Source of the DNA: Halothermothrix sp.
GTDB lineage: Bacteria; Bacillota; Halanaerobiia; DY22613
DNA: 50,745 bases
Direction of reading: 5' to 3'
Assembly: GCA_016841825.1 (NCBI GenBank)
Contig: JAENYK010000007.1
Coordinates: 1-50,745, forward strand
Shown here: positions 661 to 43,269 of the stretch, piece after piece
Position numbering within the stretch: position 1 is the stretch's first letter
Layout: every line of letters begins with the position of its first letter
Program-made: the position numbers and the translations under genes
Notes under the pieces: model-generated
What the model was told of the DNA's origin: nothing
The model's database searches: none
What the model saw: the letters and a program-made list of their open reading frames with translations, nothing else

Positions 661-1422
661 TTAACCTGACAATCTACCAATAATATGAATCGGTTTTTTT
701 ATTGCATTTTTTACTTCGTCCAGGATAAATTCGGGAATAGCAGCCAGTAAAGTAGTGGCTGGCCCTGCAGATTTATTTAAATCTATTCTACCATTTTCCT
801 CTATAATAAGATCTAAACCTGACATCTTTGCTAAAATATTGGCTTCATAAGCTAACCCCTGTGAACCTACAGGGATTATTTCATGAACTTCTTTAAATTT
901 AAGTAACTGCTGCAAATCAAAGAGATCAGCAATCTGCCCTTCATTACAGACTACCTCTTCCCCGACCAGCGGTAAACCTATAGCTATTATAAGATCATCG
1001 GCTTTAGAAGTTGCCATTTTTAATTTATCTTTGTCAACTCTTGCTATCACTGTTACTCCCATACCTGTCTGCGAAGTTTCAATATTCTCTTCTGTACTAC
1101 CATTTATTATTTTCTCGCTATCCAAACCAATTTTTCCGGCTTCTTCGCGAATTCCATTTAATATCTTTCTTCCCGTAGGTTCATATTCGACAGACAGTGT
1201 ATTTATAATGCTAATCGGCTGTGCAGCAACACTGAGAACTTCCATTAAAGCTACCCGCGACGTATAACTGCCGACTAACTCAGCAGAAACTCTAACTCGA
1301 TCTTCTCTTTTCGGACCAATACCACCCAGAGAATCACAGGCGATAACTAACAAAATATCTTCAACTATCTCTAAAACTGTTAGATCACGCTTGAATTTCT
1401 CAACTCCCTTAATCTTTGACAT
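661..1422 (-). CDS. cblS: alpha-ribazole kinase-like protein CblS (AIR synthase-like fold)
   Basis: The 253-residue protein resembles CblS, the alpha-ribazole kinase of Gram-positive bacteria that phosphorylates salvaged alpha-ribazole so it can be joined to cobinamide as the lower ligand of B12. The N-terminal part has AIR-synthase/SelD-type features: ACDSLGGIGPK near residues 29-39 and GSYTSRVALMEVL near 51-63. A glycine/alanine-rich C-terminal half follows, with no membrane segments. It is the last gene of a three-gene salvage operon. Its ATG overlaps the end of cblT by 14 nt, with AGAGGG upstream, so translation is probably coupled. The operon sits behind a cobalamin riboswitch, which fits this role. 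Family assignment is from recognition of sequence pattern and operon context. Confidence 0.8.
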   Translation of the reverse strand: MSKIKGVEKFKRDLTVLEIVEDILLVIACDSLGGIGPKREDRVRVSAELVGSYTSRVALMEVLSVAAQPISIINTLSVEYEPTGRKILNGIREEAGKIGLDSEKIINGSTEENIETSQTGMGVTVIARVDKDKLKMATSKADDLIIAIGLPLVGEEVVCNEGQIADLFDLQQLLKFKEVHEIIPVGSQGLAYEANILAKMSGLDLIIEENGRIDLNKSAGPATTLLAAIPEFILDEVKNAIKKPIHIIGRLSG

Positions 1423-1915
1423 CGACAGTACCCTCTCGATTTAATTTGTTCAAATCAATCCGGTCTGCCAATATCTTGTTGAGCACACCTGCTAAAATAA
1501 TATTTACCGCAGAACCTACTAATAAAGGACTTACCATTGATAGAAAGAACGCATATCCCAGGAATGGAATCAGCAGAGCAGTAATAACCACTCCATTTAA
1601 TAAAATGACTAAAACTGAACTAATAATGATATTTGTCTTCTTATACACATAATAAAATGCTATACCACATCCCCCCATCAGAACAGCGATCAAAAGATGA
1701 ATCATTCCGAGAGGAAAACCCATTTTCAGTGATGATAGCAGGTGTCCCAAAAATAGAACTATACTACCGTTAATACTGCCAAATAGCAATGATGACAAAT
1801 ATCCTGGTGCTGAATCAAGAGCAACCGTGCCAATTGGACTGGGGAGAACAATATATGCTCCTACAGCGCTTAATGCTACCATTAATGCTAATAACACAAG
1901 TTTTTTAGTATTCAT
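1409..1915 (-). CDS. cblT: alpha-ribazole transporter CblT (ECF S-component-like membrane protein)
   Basis: A 168-residue hydrophobic protein with about five membrane segments. Its N-terminal pattern (LALMVALSAVGAYI, then PSPIGTVALDSAPGYL) is typical of CblT, the substrate-binding membrane component for alpha-ribazole uptake. GFPLGMIHLLIAVL near the middle is another family-like stretch. I prefer the ATG at 1913-1915 because GAAGGGAG precedes it at good spacing and it clears the btuR stop by 16 nt. An in-frame ATG at 1942 would add nine residues and overlap btuR. It lies between btuR and cblS on the same strand, the classical CblST pairing. It presumably works with a generic ECF energising module encoded elsewhere. 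Confidence 0.8.
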   Translation of the reverse strand: MNTKKLVLLALMVALSAVGAYIVLPSPIGTVALDSAPGYLSSLLFGSINGSIVLFLGHLLSSLKMGFPLGMIHLLIAVLMGGCGIAFYYVYKKTNIIISSVLVILLNGVVITALLIPFLGYAFFLSMVSPLLVGSAVNIILAGVLNKILADRIDLNKLNREGTVDVKD

Positions 1916-1931
1916 AGTATATCTCCCTTCT

Positions 1932-2444
1932 TTATTTTTCAATTCCGGTTCTTGCGGCTAACCCTTGCTGATAGTAATGTTTTATCTCTTCCATCCTGGT
2001 AACCAGGTCAGCTTCTTCAATCAACTTCTGCTCAGCCTTTCTTCCGGTGATTACTACTTCCACGTGGTCAGCTCGATTTTTGATGACATCCAATAGTTCT
2101 TCAACAGAAAAAAGTTTATAATAAACAGCAATATTCGCCTCATCCAGCACAACAAGCTGATAATCCCCTGACTTTAAGATTTCACCCATCTCCCGAAGTC
2201 CTTTACGGGCAGCGGCAATATCTTCTGCTGTAGGCTGATTTCTAATAAAGCAGCCCCTTCCATACTGTTTAAGCTCAATCTGATCAAGTGAATCTAAAAC
2301 TTTAATTTCGCTGTATTCCCTTCCTTTGATAAACTGCCCAAAAAATACCCTAAACCCTGCACCAACTGCTCTGATTGCTAGACCAATAGCTGCAGTAGTT
2401 TTGCCTTTTCCGTTCCCGGTATAAACATGAATTTTACCCTGCAT
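1932..2444 (-). CDS. btuR: cob(I)yrinic acid a,c-diamide adenosyltransferase (BtuR/CobO type)
   Basis: This 170-residue P-loop enzyme transfers the adenosyl group of ATP to the reduced cobalt of corrinoids, making the coenzyme form. Visible motifs are the Walker A GNGKGKTTAA at residues 10-19, VVLDEANIA near 98-106, VVITGRKAEQKLIEEADLVT near 130-149, and the family-typical C-terminus IKHYYQQGLAARTGIEK. Length is normal for the family. AAGGAGG lies upstream of the ATG. It is the first gene of the B12 salvage operon, directly downstream of the riboswitch and terminator, so expression is likely repressed by cobalamin. It could serve general B12 metabolism and also any B12-dependent enzyme of the neighbouring NRPS line; the second is inference. 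Confidence 0.93.
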   Translation of the reverse strand: MQGKIHVYTGNGKGKTTAAIGLAIRAVGAGFRVFFGQFIKGREYSEIKVLDSLDQIELKQYGRGCFIRNQPTAEDIAAARKGLREMGEILKSGDYQLVVLDEANIAVYYKLFSVEELLDVIKNRADHVEVVITGRKAEQKLIEEADLVTRMEEIKHYYQQGLAARTGIEK

Positions 2445-33921: not shown

Positions 33922-36900
33922 TTAAACCAGAAAATCATCATTGTCATCAAATTCAAAGGTCTGATCAGTGTGTACAGCCTCTTCCACCAATCTCATCTCT
34001 GCCACTGGAATCGACTCATCGGCAAGCACTAGTTCAATCAAATACTCCAGATCATGTAACAGTCTTCTCATAATGTATTCCTCATATCGTTCAGCCTTAT
34101 AAATCAACCTGAAGCGCAATCCATCAATCTGCTCCAGCACATAAAGCGTCAGATCATATTTAGCCTCCATATTGTGCAGATCCACAAGCTCCCAAATGAG
34201 CTTGTTTGTAGGAAGTTCGCCTACAGTAGGTTCATTAATCCCCAATTGATCGACCGTGAATGGTGCATAGTTAAAGAGTATCGAAAAAATGTCACGATTC
34301 TGATGTCGCTTATCCTGAAGCTTTTCATAGATTAGATCAAAAGGATAATCCTGATTGTCCAGAGCATCTAAAACCACTGAGTTGACCTGGGCCAAATATT
34401 CAGCAAAGTCACTGTTCTGCTGAAGTCTGGTTCTGATCGGTAAAACATTTAAGAATAAACCCATCAGATCAGCCAATTCGGTTCGATTACGCCCAGCTAC
34501 AGGTACACCAATAGTTAGATCTTCCTGTTTAGTCTCTTGATACAAAAGCACCTTAAAGATACTCAGTAAAAAGGAAAATCGGGTGACATTATGTCTCTGA
34601 CAGACCTCATCAATCTGCTCTTTCAACCCAACATCAATTACGAGATCCAACTGCTTACCACTAAACTCATCTATTTCCACCAATTCCGTGCCAGGTAACC
34701 TTGTTGAACTGACGTTTTGCAGATGATTTAGCCAGTAAGCCTCCTGACCACCTATAATCTCGGATTTCAACATACGCTGCTGCCAGAAAGCAAAATCTTT
34801 ATACTGAATCTGCAACTCTGGTAATTCTGTGTTATCATATAGCCCAATAAAGTCACGAAATAGGATTTCTATTGAAGCGCCATCTGAGATAATGTGATGC
34901 ATATCAACTAATAGCAGATGTTTTTCATCCTCAATCTGAACTAGCTTCACCCGCAAGAGAGGAGGCTGACTAAGGTCAAAAGGACGAACAAAATCTTTTA
35001 TCAACTGATCAATTTCAACTGCTTCACCTTTCATGTTAATAAAATCGATCTCTAAAGGAACATCAGAATAAACTTTTTGCACAACTTCACCATGATCTTC
35101 AGAAGTAGAATCAACTAATCCAAAAGATGTTCGTAAGATCTCGTGTCTCTCAATCAGCTCTGCCCATGATCTAGTAAATTCCGTTTTGTCCAAACTGCCA
35201 TATAACCAGAGCACTCCCGGAAGATTATAATTAGTCTGCATTGGATGCAGTTGATTGAGAATAAATAGACGTTTTTGAGCTGAAGAAGTAGGATAGTACT
35301 CCCTATCTTTTACCTTTTCTATCTTTTCATAAGATTTACTCTCCTGTTCTTTTAGATATTCAGCCATAACTTTAATGGTTGGATAACGGAAGATGTCTCT
35401 TAGAGATAATTCAATGCCAAACTCCTGATAGATTTTAGCGATCAACTGAGTCCCCCGTAATGAATGACCACCCAGTTCAAAGAAATTATCAATAATCCCG
35501 ATCTCTTTAACTCCAAGAATCTGGGACCAGAATTCGATGAGTTTGCTTTCAACTGCATTAGTCGGAGGTTCATATCCACTTACCCGTTTCAAAAATCCAG
35601 CCGGTTCAGGTAATGCCTGCCGATCCAATTTACCACTCATAGTGTGTGGTAATTTTTTCATAATTACAAAATATCCAGGAATCATGTATTCGGGTAAATT
35701 ATCAGCCAGATATGCTCTAATATCAGCAGTTGGCAGATCATAATTAACCACCAGATAGGCACACAGATATTTGCCGCCATCATGATCATCGCGATCAATC
35801 ACAACAGCTTCTTTAATCACTTCATGTCTTAAAAGCTGACTTTCTATCTCACCCAACTCTATCCGATAGCCTCTAATTTTTACCTGATAATCCATCCTAC
35901 CCAAAAATTCAATTTTCCCATCGGATAACCATCTGGCCAGATCTCCTGTTCGATACATTCTAACCTGCTCATTTAAAATACTTCGCACAAACTTCTGATC
36001 AGTTAACTCAGGTCGGTTGATATACCCTCTTCCAACACTTTGCCCTGCAATACATAACTCACCGGGAATACCTACCGGTTGTGGGAGTTCACCTTCATCC
36101 AAAATAAACATCTGAGTATTGGTGATTGGCTTACCGATTGATGGAATTGCCGGAATCTCTTCTTGCGGATTCAGAGTAAGAGTTGTTACAACATGAGATT
36201 CTGTCGGTCCATAATGGTTATGCAAATACACCTGATTCTGTTGTAAATAGTCACGTAAACCATCAGTGATAACCAGTTGCTCTCCAGCGGTAATGATATG
36301 TTTAATCCCACCAGGTAATCTTTCCAGATATTCCTGATTAGCAGCAATGAATTTTAGAAAAGCTGTCGGGAAAAAGATTATCTCAATCGCCTTTTCTGCA
36401 ATATATTTAAACAATTTAAGTATATTTTTCTTCAATTCCCGATCAATCAGGTATAATTCACCCCCACTGGTAAGAGTCGAAAATATCTCCTGTACAGAGA
36501 CGTCAAAACTAATAGTGGCAAACTGTAAAACTCGTCTGCTAAAATCAATATTGGTCTCCTTTTTCTGAAAATCCAACAGATTATGAAAATTCCGATGTTC
36601 TAACATCACACTTTTCGGTCTTCCAGTCATTCCAGATGTTGAGATCAGATAGAATAGATCCTGTGGGTCATTCACAGGTTCAGGATTAGTGTTCTGCTCA
36701 TCCTCCAATTCTGATATGATCCGATCCAGAAAGATAACTTCTCGATTCAAGGTACCCAAAAGTTTTTTGGTATCTGGCTTCATATATGCCAGACCATCTA
36801 TCTCTGCCAGAACCTCTTCGGAAGGTAATTTTTTGTCATTTTTGAGCATAGCATCGATTAATTCGACAAAGGTAATCTCGCCTTCACTGAGTACCGCCAG

Positions 36901-39900
36901 ATCTATATTGGCGTCTTTTAACATCACCTGATAGTCACTGGTGGCATACGGTCCCCCGGCGATAATCGGCAGCTTAAAACCCCAGTGTCTAATATAAGTG
37001 ACTGTCTTATGGAAAAATTCTTTGTACATGGATAGTGTTCTAATCCCGATCAAATCCGGTTGAAAACTGTTAATCAATTTTTTTAATTCATCATAGCTAT
37101 TAAAATCACTCCTTGACTTGGCGACCTTTCCGATAATCTTTTGGCCTAACTTCTCCTGGGCAAATGTCAGCAAATACATTAAACCCAACGGTTCTCCCAC
37201 CACATCATACATCACGTTTCCACTATCTTCACTAAACCATTGCGACAGGTCTAAGAGCAGAGTTCTCATGGCTGTAGATTGAGGTTTTTTGACTGGATAA
37301 TATTTTTTGATCAGATTATTGAAATCTGGTGCTGCATAAGAATCTTCCCGCAGCAATTTTGTTCCCTGTAGTTCCTCTTCTTTAATTCCAACAAAATGTA
37401 ATAAATCGGCAAAACTTCTAATCTCAACAGGTAGGTAACTATCATACTTCTGGACAAGTTCATCCTCTGTTAGAATCTTCATCTGAACCGGAAGTACATG
37501 CAGTAACCGTTCTTTTAAGAGAAAATACTCCTGCATATACTTAGCCTGATATTGTCTGGTAAATTTTTTGGGGAATGGTAGAGTCTCTGGCAGCTGATGG
37601 AAAGCCAGATGAGTAGACCTTTCAATCCTTTCAGGGGATATTCCATTCTCCACTGCCAACTTATAGATCTCTGTATTGGGGAAAATTTTTAAGATGTTCA
37701 TATTAGGAAAATGCAGCCATTTAATACTTTTCACAAAATCAAAAGTCATCATAGCTTCTTCTTCAGTCTCAGTCGGAAAACCATGCATCATCTCCATCTC
37801 CAAAATCACATGAGGATGCCTCGCAGCAATATATTGAAGATTTGCCTGCAGTCGTTCCAAATTCACATTTTTACGCAACATTTTCTGAATTCGTGGAGAT
37901 GCCGATTCCAATGCCAGATCCAGGTTAACCGCACCTGCTTCGACCATTAGATCAATAAAATCTGGAGTCAAAATATCACCCCGAAGACCATTTGAATAGA
38001 ACAATTGAACATCCAGACCATTCTCAATAATCATCCGTAAAAGACGACCACTATTCTCCATATCCAGATTGAAAATATCATCAATAAAGACAAATCTTCT
38101 AACTCCAGCTTGATAACAACCAAGAATCTCATCAAAGATATTCTCAGCACTCCGCACCACATGCTTTTTGGGCCAGATCTTGTGACAGTATAAACAGTTA
38201 TAAGGACAACCTCTCGTCGCCTGTAACGAGATAACATTTTTCGCAGGGGCAATTCCGATATAGTTAAAATATCTGGAATAATCCAACAAAGTTCTATCAG
38301 GTTTAGGTAGAGAGTCAAAATCTTTGATTGGTGTTCTGGGTGATGTAGTATGTGGCTCTATATCCTCCAGATTTAGATTTTTTAAACTGGTATAAGGTAT
38401 GCGATTACTAAGTTTCTCTCCGGTCAAAAGTACAGAGGCATTGGCATCATTTAGGATCGCTAATACCCGATTATTAGGGTATTCAGGATCAATAGGGAGA
38501 TATGCTCCACCCGCTTTTATCACTCCCAAAATAGCTGTAATTAACTCTATAGAAGGTTCTAAAAGAATTCCTACAATACTCTCCCGATTAACACCCTTTC
38601 TACGTAAAAGATGGGCTAACCGATTTGCCCGTTCATTTAATTCCCGATAGGTTATTTCCTGCAAGTCGTGGATCAGAGCAGTTCTTTCAGGAGTCTGAAT
38701 CACCTGTTCCTCAAATAGCTGTTGAATCGTTTTCGCTACAAAATTAGGATCTATTGTCTGATTAAATTCGTGGAGTACCTTCTTTTTCTCCTCATCTCCT
38801 ATGATATCTAAATGACCCAGTAATATATCTGGATTTTCAATTACCAGTTCAACAATTTTAATGTAATGACTGATAAAACGCTTCATAGTCTCTTCTTTAA
38901 ATATTTCAGTGCTGTACTCCAGATAAAACTCAATTTGCCCATTCTTCTCTTCACCTGCCAAAGAGAAGTCAAAAGCTGACTTACGATTGATATAATTATA
39001 CGAACCCAGGATAATTTCCCCCAAATCAATTTCAGCCATTTTCATATTCTGTAGAACAAACATAGTGTCAAATAATGGATTACGCAGATGATCTCGTTCC
39101 AGATCCAATTTTTCCACCAACATCTCAAACTGATAATCCTGATTTTCATACGCCTCAATAGCAGTTCTTTTGACCTCTTGTAAGAACTGATTAAAACTCT
39201 TTTCTTTGGTAGGATGGTTACGCAGTGGTAAGGTATTCACAAACATTCCGATTAGTTTTTGCAGATCTTCATGCCTTCTTCCTACAATGGGTGAACCAAC
39301 TATGAGATCACTTTGTCCGGTATATTTGAAAAGCAGAACATTATATATAGATAGAAGCTCCATATACAGAGTTACATCATGGAGTAAAGTCAGTCGTTTC
39401 AATCCAGCAGTCAACTTTTGATCCAGGTTAAAATAGATCACTTTCCCTGCAAATGTTCTGGTGAGTGGTCTGGAGTAATCTGTCGGCATATTGAGAACAG
39501 GAATCTCTCCACGAAATCGTTCTAACCAATATTGTTGCTGTGCCTTAATCTCAGCTGACTCCAGATATTTATTCTGCCAGAGAGTAAAATCTTTATAGTG
39601 AACTCTCAAATCAGCTAACTCCAGATCTGCATAGAGTTGATTTAACTCGCTAATCAAGATGTCAGCAGATGTTCCATCAAAGATTATATGATGTACATCA
39701 AAGATCAGTAATGAATAATCTCCACATGGAATGTAACCAATTCTCATTAAAGGTGATTTGCCTAAATCAAAAGGTCGGATAAATTTAGCAATCTGTTCAT
39801 CAATTCCGGGATCACCATTCAATAATTGCTCTTTTGAGGTATTCAGTTCAGGGTAAAGTTCAATTGCAAACTCAAATGTCTCATGAACAATCTGAACCGG

Positions 39901-42900
39901 TTCTCCATTAATAAAATCAAAAGAAGTTCTCAATGTTTCATGTCGATTAATTAATTGTCTGATCACTCTTTCAATTTTATTAAAATTAATCGGATTGTGG
40001 AGAATTAAAATTTTGGGAACATTATAGCTGGTATTATCATTATTAAACTGATTTAATAAGAACAATCGGCGTTGAGCAGATGAGACAGGATAATAGTCCC
40101 GTTTCTCAACGCTAGCAATATCGTAAAATTCAGCCCTTTTTGCCGCAGTAATATAAGCGGCAATATCTCTTAATATGGGTGTATCAAATATTTGATGAAT
40201 TGGTAAATCCACCTGTAAATCTTTCACAACTCTCGTTGTCAATTGCATCGCATTTAACGAATGTCCACCCAGACTAAAGAAATTATCGTCAATTCCAACC
40301 TCTTCTACACCTAAAATATCTTTACATATTTTAACGATCTGTGTTTCCGGTTTTGTTAGAGATTCCCCGAAATCAATCTGCTCAAGCCTGACTACCGACT
40401 GTTTTGATAATTGGTGATAATCTATTTTCCCATTAGATGTATAGGGAATCTGCTTTATTTTACTAAATATCGGGAGCATATACTCTGGCAGTCTTGCTGC
40501 CAGAAATTCTCGCAATTCAGCTTGTACAATATCCTCTTTTAAGACCAAAAAAGCTACCAGATAATTATCCTTGTTCAGAATAACGACTACATCTTCTATT
40601 GATTCATACTGCCGCAATTGAGTCTCAATCTCTCCCAACTCCACCCTATATCCTCTAAGTTTAATCTGTCTATCCATTCGACCAAGAAACTCAATATTCC
40701 CATCCGGTAAATATCTTCCTAAATCTCCTGTCTTAAACAGTCTTTCACCTGAACGAAATGGATTGGCAATAAATCTTTCCGTAGTCAGTTGATCCCGATA
40801 TAAATATCCCCGGGCTACACCTACCCCACCAATATACATCTCTCCTGGCACTCCTACAGGTGTTGGTTCCCCTTCTGAGTCCAGAATATATATCTGTACA
40901 TTAGGCATTGGAGAGCCAATCGGTACATTTCTACCTTCTGAATCTGGTGAAGTAAAGTTATAACATGTCGAGCAGATTGTAGTTTCAGTCAGACCGTAAC
41001 AATTATTTATCTGAATATTACTTTTAAGCTGCAGATAATCTGCTAAAAGTTGATCATTGATTGGTTCCACTCCTACCAGGATCTTATTTAAACTAAGAGG
41101 TTTATCCATCTGTTTGAATAGGTTGTACAATCCACCAAGTACGGTAGGGGGAATATAAGCATAAGTGATCTCCTCTTTTTGAATCATCTCAGCCAAATCC
41201 TGAAGATCTAAATACTGTCCTCTCTGCATCAAAATCAGGGTTCCTCCTGATAGTAGTGGGACGAAGAATTCACTCACACTAACATCAAAGGAGATATTGG
41301 TCACGCTTAGACATCGATCAGCAGGTCCAAAATCATGATTATAAGTCTCAAAAACCCCGTAAATATAATTAGTCAAAGATCTATGTTCAATCATAACACC
41401 TTTAGGCTGTCCAGTAGAACCCGAGGTATAGATCATATAAACCAGATTATCAGATCTGTTCACTATCTTTACTCCGGTTGCAGAAAACTGGGTAAAGTCT
41501 TTACTAAAGAGGTCACAAACTAATCCATTAAAGTTTAAATCTTTTGCTCCTTCTGTATCGGTCAAAAGAATTTTCGTTTTGCTATCCTTTAAAATAAACT
41601 CTTTCCTCTGAACTGGATAATCTGGATCAATTGGCAGATATGCACCTCCTGCCGTGATAATTGCCATAATCCCGATCATCATCTCCAGAGAACTTTTCAG
41701 CATCAAAGCTACAATACTGTCTGAACCAACTCCTTTTTCCTGAAGAAAATTTGCCAGCTTATTAATTTTGGTAGCGAATTCTTGATAAGTCAGGCTTTGA
41801 TCTAAATATCGTACTGCCATCTGTTCAGGATATTTATCTACAATCTCAAAAAATAGTTGATTGACAGGCTTATGTAATGGATATTTCCTGGCTGTAGCAT
41901 TAAATTTTTCAATTACCTGTTCCCGTTCTTCGGGAGTAAGACGCAGAATTTCAGAGACCTGCCTCTCTGGATACTCAATCAGTTGTTCTAAGATTTTCAC
42001 CAAATGGTCAAGAGTCTGACGCATTCCGGAAGAAGTATATTTCGCCCGATTATAATGAAGAATAATCTCATAACCTTTGAAAGCATGCACTGCTACTATA
42101 ATCTCAAATTTCTCTGTTTCACGCATAGCATAGGACTCAATCTGCAATTGACCATTTCTGGTAGATAATTCTGTTAGAGGATAGTTTTCAACAACCACAA
42201 CTGTATCAAAAAGTGTATCTTCATAATTTATTCGACTTAATTGTTTTATTTTATATAATGGAGTATGGATATAGCGCAGTTTATCCCGACTATCCTGACT
42301 GACTTCCTGTAAAAGATGTTCAATCTGTTCTTCTCTATTAACTCTGATCCGAACAGGTAGTGTATTGATAAACAATCCAACCATCTTCTCAATCTCGACC
42401 AACTCTGTCGGACGACCAGAGACAACAGTACCAAAAAGTGGTTCATTATTAGTATATTTAGTTAATAATAGTCCCCAGGCAGTATTAAACAGTATTCCCA
42501 GGGTCAGTTTCTGATCTTTGATAAAATTATCTATTCGATTGGCAAAATCTTCAGATAAGTTAAAATTACAACTATCCATCTCACCTTCTTTATTTGTCTC
42601 TCGATTTCTACCAGGTAAATGACTTTTGTTCTCTATCCCTGCCAAATAATTACTCCAGAAGACTTCACCATCTGTTATATTCTGTGCAGCTGCTACTTTC
42701 AAATATTCTTTAAACCTGGTTTTAGGGGCTAATCGCACATCTGTCTTGCTATCGAGAGCTGTATAAGCAGTAAAAAATTCTTTTAGAATAATTCCATTAC
42801 TCCAACCATCATAAATAATATGATGATTACAGATAATCAGCTCATACTTATCTATAGCCAATTTGCAGAGAATGATTCTAAATAATGGTCCAGTCTGCAG

Positions 42901-43269
42901 ATCAAACCCAATCTCCCTCTCTTCAACTTTAATCTGTGATAACTTTTCCTTTTGAGCTTTCTGAGTCAGTGCAGAAAGGTCATACTCATAAAAGGAAAGT
43001 TCCTGTTTTTTCAAGACAATCTGTACTGGATCTTGCAAATTATCCCAGGTAAAAACTGTTCTTAACATCTCATTAGTTTGAACAACTATCTCCCAGGCTT
43101 GTTTACAGATTAAGCTATCCATGTCCCCTGCCAATTTTAAACTTAACTGTTCAAAATACAGGTCATTCTCTCTATCCAGGAGATAGTGATAAAGAATACC
43201 ACTCTGCATAGGACTCAACGATAATATGTCTTCCACATTCTGTTTGTCAAGCGTAAAATAATCTTTCAT
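33922..43269 (-). CDS. initiating NRPS with embedded radical SAM/B12 insert: C-A-T-C-A(Pro-like, interrupted)-T-C
   Basis: 3115 residues, first gene of the operon, ATG preceded by AAAGGAG. The leading C (~12-440; HHIIYDG) stands before the first A domain, as in lipoinitiation C domains, so the peptide may be N-acylated. A1 (~460-960; hand-read DVSYLGCICK, unassigned), T (Ser ~1003, GGHSL) and C2 (~1050-1480; HHIIFDG) follow. The second A domain begins ~1500, is interrupted at ~1630-2200 and resumes with STSGMTGRPKSV, a degenerate A3 motif. Its code DVQFIAHVVK matches known proline codes (DVQLIAHVVK type). T2 (~2570-2640) and a C-terminal C3 (~2655-3085; HHIISDG) complete the protein, whose tail TFEFDDNDDFLV may dock to the next enzyme. 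The A10 Lys is present in both A domains (NGKID, SGKLD). Confidence 0.92.
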   Translation of the reverse strand: MKDYFTLDKQNVEDILSLSPMQSGILYHYLLDRENDLYFEQLSLKLAGDMDSLICKQAWEIVVQTNEMLRTVFTWDNLQDPVQIVLKKQELSFYEYDLSALTQKAQKEKLSQIKVEEREIGFDLQTGPLFRIILCKLAIDKYELIICNHHIIYDGWSNGIILKEFFTAYTALDSKTDVRLAPKTRFKEYLKVAAAQNITDGEVFWSNYLAGIENKSHLPGRNRETNKEGEMDSCNFNLSEDFANRIDNFIKDQKLTLGILFNTAWGLLLTKYTNNEPLFGTVVSGRPTELVEIEKMVGLFINTLPVRIRVNREEQIEHLLQEVSQDSRDKLRYIHTPLYKIKQLSRINYEDTLFDTVVVVENYPLTELSTRNGQLQIESYAMRETEKFEIIVAVHAFKGYEIILHYNRAKYTSSGMRQTLDHLVKILEQLIEYPERQVSEILRLTPEEREQVIEKFNATARKYPLHKPVNQLFFEIVDKYPEQMAVRYLDQSLTYQEFATKINKLANFLQEKGVGSDSIVALMLKSSLEMMIGIMAIITAGGAYLPIDPDYPVQRKEFILKDSKTKILLTDTEGAKDLNFNGLVCDLFSKDFTQFSATGVKIVNRSDNLVYMIYTSGSTGQPKGVMIEHRSLTNYIYGVFETYNHDFGPADRCLSVTNISFDVSVSEFFVPLLSGGTLILMQRGQYLDLQDLAEMIQKEEITYAYIPPTVLGGLYNLFKQMDKPLSLNKILVGVEPINDQLLADYLQLKSNIQINNCYGLTETTICSTCYNFTSPDSEGRNVPIGSPMPNVQIYILDSEGEPTPVGVPGEMYIGGVGVARGYLYRDQLTTERFIANPFRSGERLFKTGDLGRYLPDGNIEFLGRMDRQIKLRGYRVELGEIETQLRQYESIEDVVVILNKDNYLVAFLVLKEDIVQAELREFLAARLPEYMLPIFSKIKQIPYTSNGKIDYHQLSKQSVVRLEQIDFGESLTKPETQIVKICKDILGVEEVGIDDNFFSLGGHSLNAMQLTTRVVKDLQVDLPIHQIFDTPILRDIAAYITAAKRAEFYDIASVEKRDYYPVSSAQRRLFLLNQFNNDNTSYNVPKILILHNPINFNKIERVIRQLINRHETLRTSFDFINGEPVQIVHETFEFAIELYPELNTSKEQLLNGDPGIDEQIAKFIRPFDLGKSPLMRIGYIPCGDYSLLIFDVHHIIFDGTSADILISELNQLYADLELADLRVHYKDFTLWQNKYLESAEIKAQQQYWLERFRGEIPVLNMPTDYSRPLTRTFAGKVIYFNLDQKLTAGLKRLTLLHDVTLYMELLSIYNVLLFKYTGQSDLIVGSPIVGRRHEDLQKLIGMFVNTLPLRNHPTKEKSFNQFLQEVKRTAIEAYENQDYQFEMLVEKLDLERDHLRNPLFDTMFVLQNMKMAEIDLGEIILGSYNYINRKSAFDFSLAGEEKNGQIEFYLEYSTEIFKEETMKRFISHYIKIVELVIENPDILLGHLDIIGDEEKKKVLHEFNQTIDPNFVAKTIQQLFEEQVIQTPERTALIHDLQEITYRELNERANRLAHLLRRKGVNRESIVGILLEPSIELITAILGVIKAGGAYLPIDPEYPNNRVLAILNDANASVLLTGEKLSNRIPYTSLKNLNLEDIEPHTTSPRTPIKDFDSLPKPDRTLLDYSRYFNYIGIAPAKNVISLQATRGCPYNCLYCHKIWPKKHVVRSAENIFDEILGCYQAGVRRFVFIDDIFNLDMENSGRLLRMIIENGLDVQLFYSNGLRGDILTPDFIDLMVEAGAVNLDLALESASPRIQKMLRKNVNLERLQANLQYIAARHPHVILEMEMMHGFPTETEEEAMMTFDFVKSIKWLHFPNMNILKIFPNTEIYKLAVENGISPERIERSTHLAFHQLPETLPFPKKFTRQYQAKYMQEYFLLKERLLHVLPVQMKILTEDELVQKYDSYLPVEIRSFADLLHFVGIKEEELQGTKLLREDSYAAPDFNNLIKKYYPVKKPQSTAMRTLLLDLSQWFSEDSGNVMYDVVGEPLGLMYLLTFAQEKLGQKIIGKVAKSRSDFNSYDELKKLINSFQPDLIGIRTLSMYKEFFHKTVTYIRHWGFKLPIIAGGPYATSDYQVMLKDANIDLAVLSEGEITFVELIDAMLKNDKKLPSEEVLAEIDGLAYMKPDTKKLLGTLNREVIFLDRIISELEDEQNTNPEPVNDPQDLFYLISTSGMTGRPKSVMLEHRNFHNLLDFQKKETNIDFSRRVLQFATISFDVSVQEIFSTLTSGGELYLIDRELKKNILKLFKYIAEKAIEIIFFPTAFLKFIAANQEYLERLPGGIKHIITAGEQLVITDGLRDYLQQNQVYLHNHYGPTESHVVTTLTLNPQEEIPAIPSIGKPITNTQMFILDEGELPQPVGIPGELCIAGQSVGRGYINRPELTDQKFVRSILNEQVRMYRTGDLARWLSDGKIEFLGRMDYQVKIRGYRIELGEIESQLLRHEVIKEAVVIDRDDHDGGKYLCAYLVVNYDLPTADIRAYLADNLPEYMIPGYFVIMKKLPHTMSGKLDRQALPEPAGFLKRVSGYEPPTNAVESKLIEFWSQILGVKEIGIIDNFFELGGHSLRGTQLIAKIYQEFGIELSLRDIFRYPTIKVMAEYLKEQESKSYEKIEKVKDREYYPTSSAQKRLFILNQLHPMQTNYNLPGVLWLYGSLDKTEFTRSWAELIERHEILRTSFGLVDSTSEDHGEVVQKVYSDVPLEIDFINMKGEAVEIDQLIKDFVRPFDLSQPPLLRVKLVQIEDEKHLLLVDMHHIISDGASIEILFRDFIGLYDNTELPELQIQYKDFAFWQQRMLKSEIIGGQEAYWLNHLQNVSSTRLPGTELVEIDEFSGKQLDLVIDVGLKEQIDEVCQRHNVTRFSFLLSIFKVLLYQETKQEDLTIGVPVAGRNRTELADLMGLFLNVLPIRTRLQQNSDFAEYLAQVNSVVLDALDNQDYPFDLIYEKLQDKRHQNRDIFSILFNYAPFTVDQLGINEPTVGELPTNKLIWELVDLHNMEAKYDLTLYVLEQIDGLRFRLIYKAERYEEYIMRRLLHDLEYLIELVLADESIPVAEMRLVEEAVHTDQTFEFDDNDDFLV
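36680..38370 (-). other. radical SAM plus B12-binding-like insert inside the Pro-like A domain
   Basis: Between A2 (GGAYLPIDPEYP) and A3 of the second A domain lie ~560 extra residues. DFDSLPKPDR (~1648) is the linker that normally joins a B12-binding domain to a radical SAM core. ATRGCPYNCLYC follows, with cluster cysteines 1688, 1692 and 1695, then a TIM-barrel-like stretch to ~1990 (SNGLRGD, LALESAS, MMHGFPTET). Residues ~2000-2160 look like a B12-binding Rossmann domain (EPLGLMYLLTFA, DLIGIRTLSM, IIAGGPYATSD, SEGEITFVEL, IDGLAYMKPD). No DxHxxG cobalt-ligand motif is visible, as in many B12-radical SAM enzymes. The usual order (B12 domain first) is permuted. A likely role is radical modification, such as C-methylation, of the amino acid activated here; that is inference. 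Confidence 0.88.

Follow-up and report, generated by a model that had tools for sequence, protein, structure and literature searches.

An insert of ~520 residues separates motifs A2 and A3 in the second A domain of an NRPS from Halothermothrix sp., and it is almost certainly a circularly permuted class 1 B12-radical SAM enzyme seated in the A2-A3 loop. The NRPS gene lies on the minus strand at 33922..43269 of the window, the whole 50,745-nucleotide stretch of DNA that was analysed. It encodes 3115 aa with three C, two A and two T domains, as judged from its open reading frame and Pfam matches. Taken as a whole, we lean towards the explanation that the permuted enzyme resides in a working proline-type A domain and C-methylates the residue bound to the T domain.

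To define the interruption, we located the parts of the host A domain on either side of it (all features of this gene are on the minus strand). The N-terminal part (38377..38772) carries motifs A1-A2 and extends to about LLTGEKLSNRIP. The insert starts ~12 residues past the end of this part and occupies about 38340-36772, ending ahead of REVIFLD (from 36744, aa 2176), the A-domain strand that precedes A3. The A domain then resumes (35584..36744) with REVIFLD and motifs A3-A10, and is followed by the carrier (T) domain of the insert-bearing module, detected by Pfam at 35353..35544. The 3' limit of 36680 given in the initial annotation runs ~60 bases too far, into the A domain. A structure predicted for the A domain together with the insert (pLDDT 89.1, pTM 0.86) gave the proline A core of GrsB1 as the top structural relative, with 388 of 388 residues aligned across the insert (1.1 Å, Z 58.8, 53% identity). 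By sequence, the top solved relative in a single stretch was tyrocidine synthase 2 (484 bits). Since the GrsB1 core can be aligned across the insert, the insert leaves and re-enters one A-domain loop. The residues flanking it belong to that loop, and its termini must therefore lie close together in the predicted structure, as judged from the A-core superposition. We read the specificity residues DVQFIAHVV as a proline-like code, and the host A domain probably selects proline. Using loose patterns on 29 hosts picked for a complete A domain, motifs A3, A4, A5 and A7 were found in all 29, A8 in 26 and A10 in 28. A foreign catalytic domain between A2 and A3 with retained core motifs corresponds to an interrupted A domain of the a2-a3 type. 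Just downstream of the NRPS cluster and on the same strand, window positions 1409-2444 encode a BtuR/CobO corrinoid adenosyltransferase (215.8 bits) and an ECF transporter S component.

The insert consists of a linker, a radical SAM core, a helical domain and a Rossmann B12 domain, in that order. Its N-terminus, PRTPIKDFDSLPKPDR (38293..38340), corresponds to the segment that joins the B12 and radical SAM domains in canonical proteins and includes the linker DFDSLPKPDR (aa 1650-1659, 38293-38322). The radical SAM core (PF04055, 58.7 bits; aa 1684-1846, 37732..38220) contains CPYNCLYC (aa 1688-1695, 38185..38208), the CxxxCxxC motif for the [4Fe-4S] cluster. A helical segment with approximate limits of 37279..37620 separates the radical SAM and B12 regions and is the predicted equivalent of the class 1 C-terminal domain. 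The predicted cobalamin-binding Rossmann domain (36772..37278, from Pfam and the model) matches PF02310 at aa 2024-2137 and ends in EIDGLAYMKPD (aa 2156-2166, 36772-36804). Positions in the open reading frame and the Pfam matches confirmed the motifs and the order that had been proposed for them. The PF02310 score was 32.1 bits, exactly at the curated cut-off of 32.1, and the homologous stretch of a related locus, L034, scored 41.0 bits. DxHxxG was absent from 68 of 69 aligned rows of the family, which were selected for near-full-length matches. The NCBIfam matches to the insert were all far below their cut-offs (PhpK P-methyltransferase, 95 bits against a cut-off of 600; BzaD, BchE, AprD4 and others), and the nearest models include non-methylases.

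To examine the fold, the insert was modelled with AlphaFold2 (pLDDT 90.8, pTM 0.90) and compared with solved structures using VIA-align. The best structural match was AprD4, of which residues 162-439 aligned with model residues 8-288 (Z 20.8, 3.0 Å, 266 aligned). TsrM 165-545 aligned with 9-343 (Z 17.1, 3.6 Å, 268 aligned), OxsB 277-594 with 8-268 (Z 15.6, 2.8 Å, 240 aligned) and CysS 162-598 with 8-340 (Z 14.2, 4.0 Å, 293 aligned). All four alignments begin at model residue 8 or 9, a point past the B12 domain of those chains (residue 162-277). The B12 half of the model, which has five strands and a short sixth, was matched by the MetH cobalamin domain (746-880 against model 360-525; Z 12.1, 2.6 Å, 131 aligned). 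The C-terminal half thus matches a B12-binding fold both in PF02310, at the cut-off, and in MetH, and the failure that would have spoken against the permuted order was not seen. Short strands are present at both ends of the model, at residues 4-5 and 524-526. Class 1 B12 domains have a β-hairpin after strand 5, according to the available text of the Avalos and Drennan review (PMC13331322). From these two observations, we infer that the new chain ends were created by opening this β-hairpin at its turn.

Class 1 enzymes (OxsB, TsrM, TokK and CysS, with AprD4 as a structural relative) share with the insert the radical SAM core, the linker, the helical domain, the Rossmann B12 domain and CxxxCxxC. 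In contrast, their B12 domain lies ahead of the radical SAM and helical domains, whereas here it lies behind them, within an A domain. The insert therefore has the radical SAM core and the Rossmann B12 domain of class 1 and departs from it in that its B12 domain is not N-terminal to the core. A B12 domain C-terminal to the radical SAM core is already known in class 2 (Mmp10 and DUF512 proteins; PMC13331322, in the text available). However, in that text the B12 domain of Mmp10 is four-stranded and CFeSP-like, whereas the insert matches PF02310 and the Rossmann domain of MetH. Mmp10 structure 7qbt aligned over 42-312 only, and 7qbs aligned out to 473 but at 11.1 Å.

To compare domain order across relatives, HMMs were built from each half of the permuted set and applied to 24 canonical loci (L112-L135) taken from the phylum of Desulfosediminicola. 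The main match of each locus had B12 first and radical SAM second, with bit scores of 138-219 for the radical SAM half and 33-111 for the B12 half. The same canonical proteins thus match both halves, compared separately, in the opposite order, which upholds the permuted order proposed in the initial annotation. All fetched open frames of at least 250 aa with a match to these HMMs gave 143 distinct frames: 70 with radical SAM before B12, one with two copies in that order, 46 with B12 before radical SAM, 24 with radical SAM only and two with B12 only. No copy in canonical order was found inside an A domain among the fetched frames, the 46 canonical-order frames all being 293-698 aa. Seven of eight canonical proteins examined have a B12-to-linker spacing that differs by 0-7 residues from the value predicted if the end of the insert were joined directly to its start, and the eighth (L043can) was 24 off. 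This spacing fits a direct join and indicates that the insert begins and ends at the two sides of the canonical inter-domain joint, which is where the cut had been placed. The permuted and canonical sets were split in the tree with 100/100 support, and the permutation looks like one event. Together, these results support a domain order that is permuted relative to class 1. The chain would be broken after GLAY, where the B12 domain ends, and before the linker PRxxIxDxDxLPxPDR. Since the new termini would be two segments that are adjacent in canonical relatives, they would fit one surface loop.

The architecture, the domain order, the predicted fold, the conserved motifs and the intact A core are shown by computation. 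In the proposed mechanism, the A domain would load its amino acid (proline by code) onto the T domain, whose arm would then swing to the insert. The insert is presumably loaded with its cofactors, and the [4Fe-4S] cluster and SAM would generate a 5'-deoxyadenosyl radical with methylcobalamin as the methyl donor. The carrier-bound aminoacyl group would thereby be C-methylated ahead of condensation, and the insert is apparently a built-in tool that alters an amino acid during peptide assembly. Two free-standing relatives have informative neighbours: L043 is flanked by an A protein and a carrier protein, and L062 comes after an A-T protein. This suggests that the substrate of the insert is likely to be carrier-bound. 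CysS, one of the structural relatives that have been solved, takes a pantetheine/thioester-linked substrate (PMC12846815), and in A domains interrupted by methylases of other folds, the methylase works once T has been loaded (PMC11355689). By analogy with both, C-methylation of aminoacyl-S-T may be the chemistry of the insert, with roughly even chances. An active insert with another chemistry, such as cobalamin-dependent radical epimerisation, cyclisation or dehydration of an aminoacyl or peptidyl thioester, is a less probable reading. It draws on the top structural match, AprD4, which is a diol dehydratase, and on the NCBIfam relatives, which include BchE and BzaD; however, characterised class 1 cobalamin-dependent radical SAM enzymes are mostly methylases.

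We found 66 related loci, mostly in NRPS A domains, under record names including Aminicenantes, Acidobacteriota, several Bacillota, Bacteroidales, Desulfobacterota, Spirochaetales, Elusimicrobia and SAR324. Carriers of such modules include Pseudobacteroides cellulosolvens and Clostridium puniceum. The distribution of the family among phyla is patchy. One Aminicenantes genome had 34 matches, fragments counted, and the genome of the window had four at E < 1e-60. Among 61 relatives of the window genome, the only one with a match at 1e-60 was the window genome itself, and in the phylum of G061 the only one of 199 genomes at 1e-100 was G061. Matches at 1e-40 occurred in six of 247 genomes in the family of the Pelagibacterales genome G076, itself included, and in 16 of 297 in the phylum of G072, where the G072 match alone spanned the whole permuted model and the others covered mainly the radical SAM part. 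A near-full-length filter reduced 98 hits to 69 distinct rows, dropping truncated or frame-split copies such as L053, L056, L058, L061 and L064. These rows comprised 49 copies inserted in an A domain, 10 borne by an additional A domain that is partial or degenerate, and 10 free-standing copies, eight of which came from the Pelagibacterales searches. Rare free-standing Pelagibacterales copies include L051, L052, L055, L060 and L063. LuxE, LuxC, an AMP-binding protein or NeuB are among the neighbours of L051 and L063, a setting that resembles surface-sugar gene clusters, and the surroundings of L060 appear similar by eye. In L003, L011, L015 (second copy), L020, L025, L033, L038, L054 and L061, a full A domain is followed in frame by a partial A domain lacking A3-A10 that bears the permuted enzyme. 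The code of the preceding A domain in these nine copies is always CVQ[YF][IV]AHVV, with Cys in place of the usual first Asp.

Some A domains at these loci carry other interruptions. In L034 (8470-9780), the A domain is broken again between A8 and A9 by a PP-loop domain of the N-acetyl sugar amidotransferase type (TIGR03573, 75.7 bits; QueC, 30.9 bits). A second A8-A9 interruption also occurs in L026, L027, L031, L032, L035, L069 and L070, seen either as a split C-terminal subdomain or from the motif only, and hosts with this second interruption have the code DPWYIGTIN or near, L027 excepted. In L016 (6377-8110), a neighbouring A domain is interrupted at A2-A3 by a ThiF/MoeB-type domain (PF00899, 184.2 bits), and a similar domain was seen by eye at A2-A3 of a neighbouring A domain in L021 (6268-8000).

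To ask whether the free-standing copies preceded the inserted ones, trees were built from 44 of the 69 permuted rows with 0, 2 or 9 outgroups; their rooting is unsure, given the odd composition of L047 and some outgroups. In the best trees, the free-standing copies were nested among the inserted ones, with three changes needed in the best of these careful trees. The inserted rows formed a single clade in 0% of 200 bootstrap trees. In addition, free-standing L043 retains a remnant of the A2 region of an A domain upstream (16.8 bits, against 8.9 for the best of 1000 shuffles). The nesting and the remnant point to excision of the free-standing copies from A domains. The opposite course, in which the permuted enzyme was first a free-standing gene for carrier-bound substrates and entered A domains later, runs against both observations and we consider it rather unlikely. 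It accords with the 10 of 69 rows that are free-standing, eight of them from Pelagibacterales searches, and with AU tests, in which a tree placing the free-standing copies outside a single clade of inserted ones was not rejected (p 0.913, 0.155 and 0.297). A quick tree with five distant outgroups was set aside, as the constrained tree was 62 log units better. The initial annotation had suggested permutation on insertion into a loop. The permuted order and the anchoring of both ends in one A-domain loop stand, and the permutation may or may not have coincided with insertion, given that free-standing relatives of the same order, the counter-example named in the initial annotation, exist (10 of 69) and that the AU p is 0.297.

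Domain shuffling instead of permutation, in which a B12-less radical SAM protein was fused to a B12 domain from another protein of the family, is more doubtful still. The nearest canonical protein does differ by half: L112 for radical SAM (39.0% mean identity), and L119 for B12 (31.8%), followed by L135 (31.6%) and L112 (30.3%). However, conservation is lower in the B12 half, where the identities are nearly equal, the same proteins match both halves, and the N-terminal linker and C-terminal GIAF/GLAY are both preserved at the chain ends of the permuted set. A decayed, inactive passenger is very improbable: L024 lacks one cluster cysteine, and neither L056 nor L064 lies in a single frame in the assemblies retrieved, but CxxxCxxC is conserved in 68 of the 69 near-full-length rows, and GGP and the linker Arg in all 69, across many phyla.

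Besides Pro, the specificities predicted from the host A-domain codes were Thr, Ile, Leu, Val, Asn, Glu and Phe. Mapped on the insert tree, the codes clustered overall (29 labels, 12 changes against 19.3 when shuffled, 0 of 300 as low), and this clustering was gone without the Pro and DPWY groups (18 labels, 10 changes against 10.3, 155 of 300). Across 29 hosts, the specificity core was the part least correlated with the two insert halves (rho 0.27 and 0.32), compared with 0.49 and 0.58 for the N-terminal A part. Such weak correlation is expected from A-core exchange around a resident insert. One family serving modules of many amino acids suggests a target common to them, such as the α or β carbon. 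We tentatively propose that the insert may be an in-line radical C-modification cassette for NRPSs of many amino acids, in which permutation fitted the enzyme to the A2-A3 loop and A-core exchange spread the specificities.

The interrupted A domains of TioN and MarQ resemble this one in the a2-a3 site, the intact A motifs and the proposed action on a T-bound residue, and a2-a3 insertion is thus already known for ordinary methylases (PMC11355689, in the portion available). In contrast, their cargo is an S-methylase domain with SAM as the direct donor, whereas the insert is a permuted B12-radical SAM enzyme. No report of a permuted class 1 enzyme or a radical SAM domain as A-domain cargo was found in the literature searched, mostly open-access journal papers, and the available text of two A-domain reviews (PMC11355689, PMC11253843) does not mention a radical SAM insert. 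If true, natural circular permutation to seat a two-cofactor radical enzyme in the loop of a working enzyme would be a rare solution to the domain-insertion problem. The permuted insert shows where cobalamin-radical SAM enzymes tolerate new termini and is a potential part for NRPS engineering. A further prediction is that bacteria, mostly anaerobic and uncultured ones, make radical-modified nonribosomal peptides that have yet to be seen.
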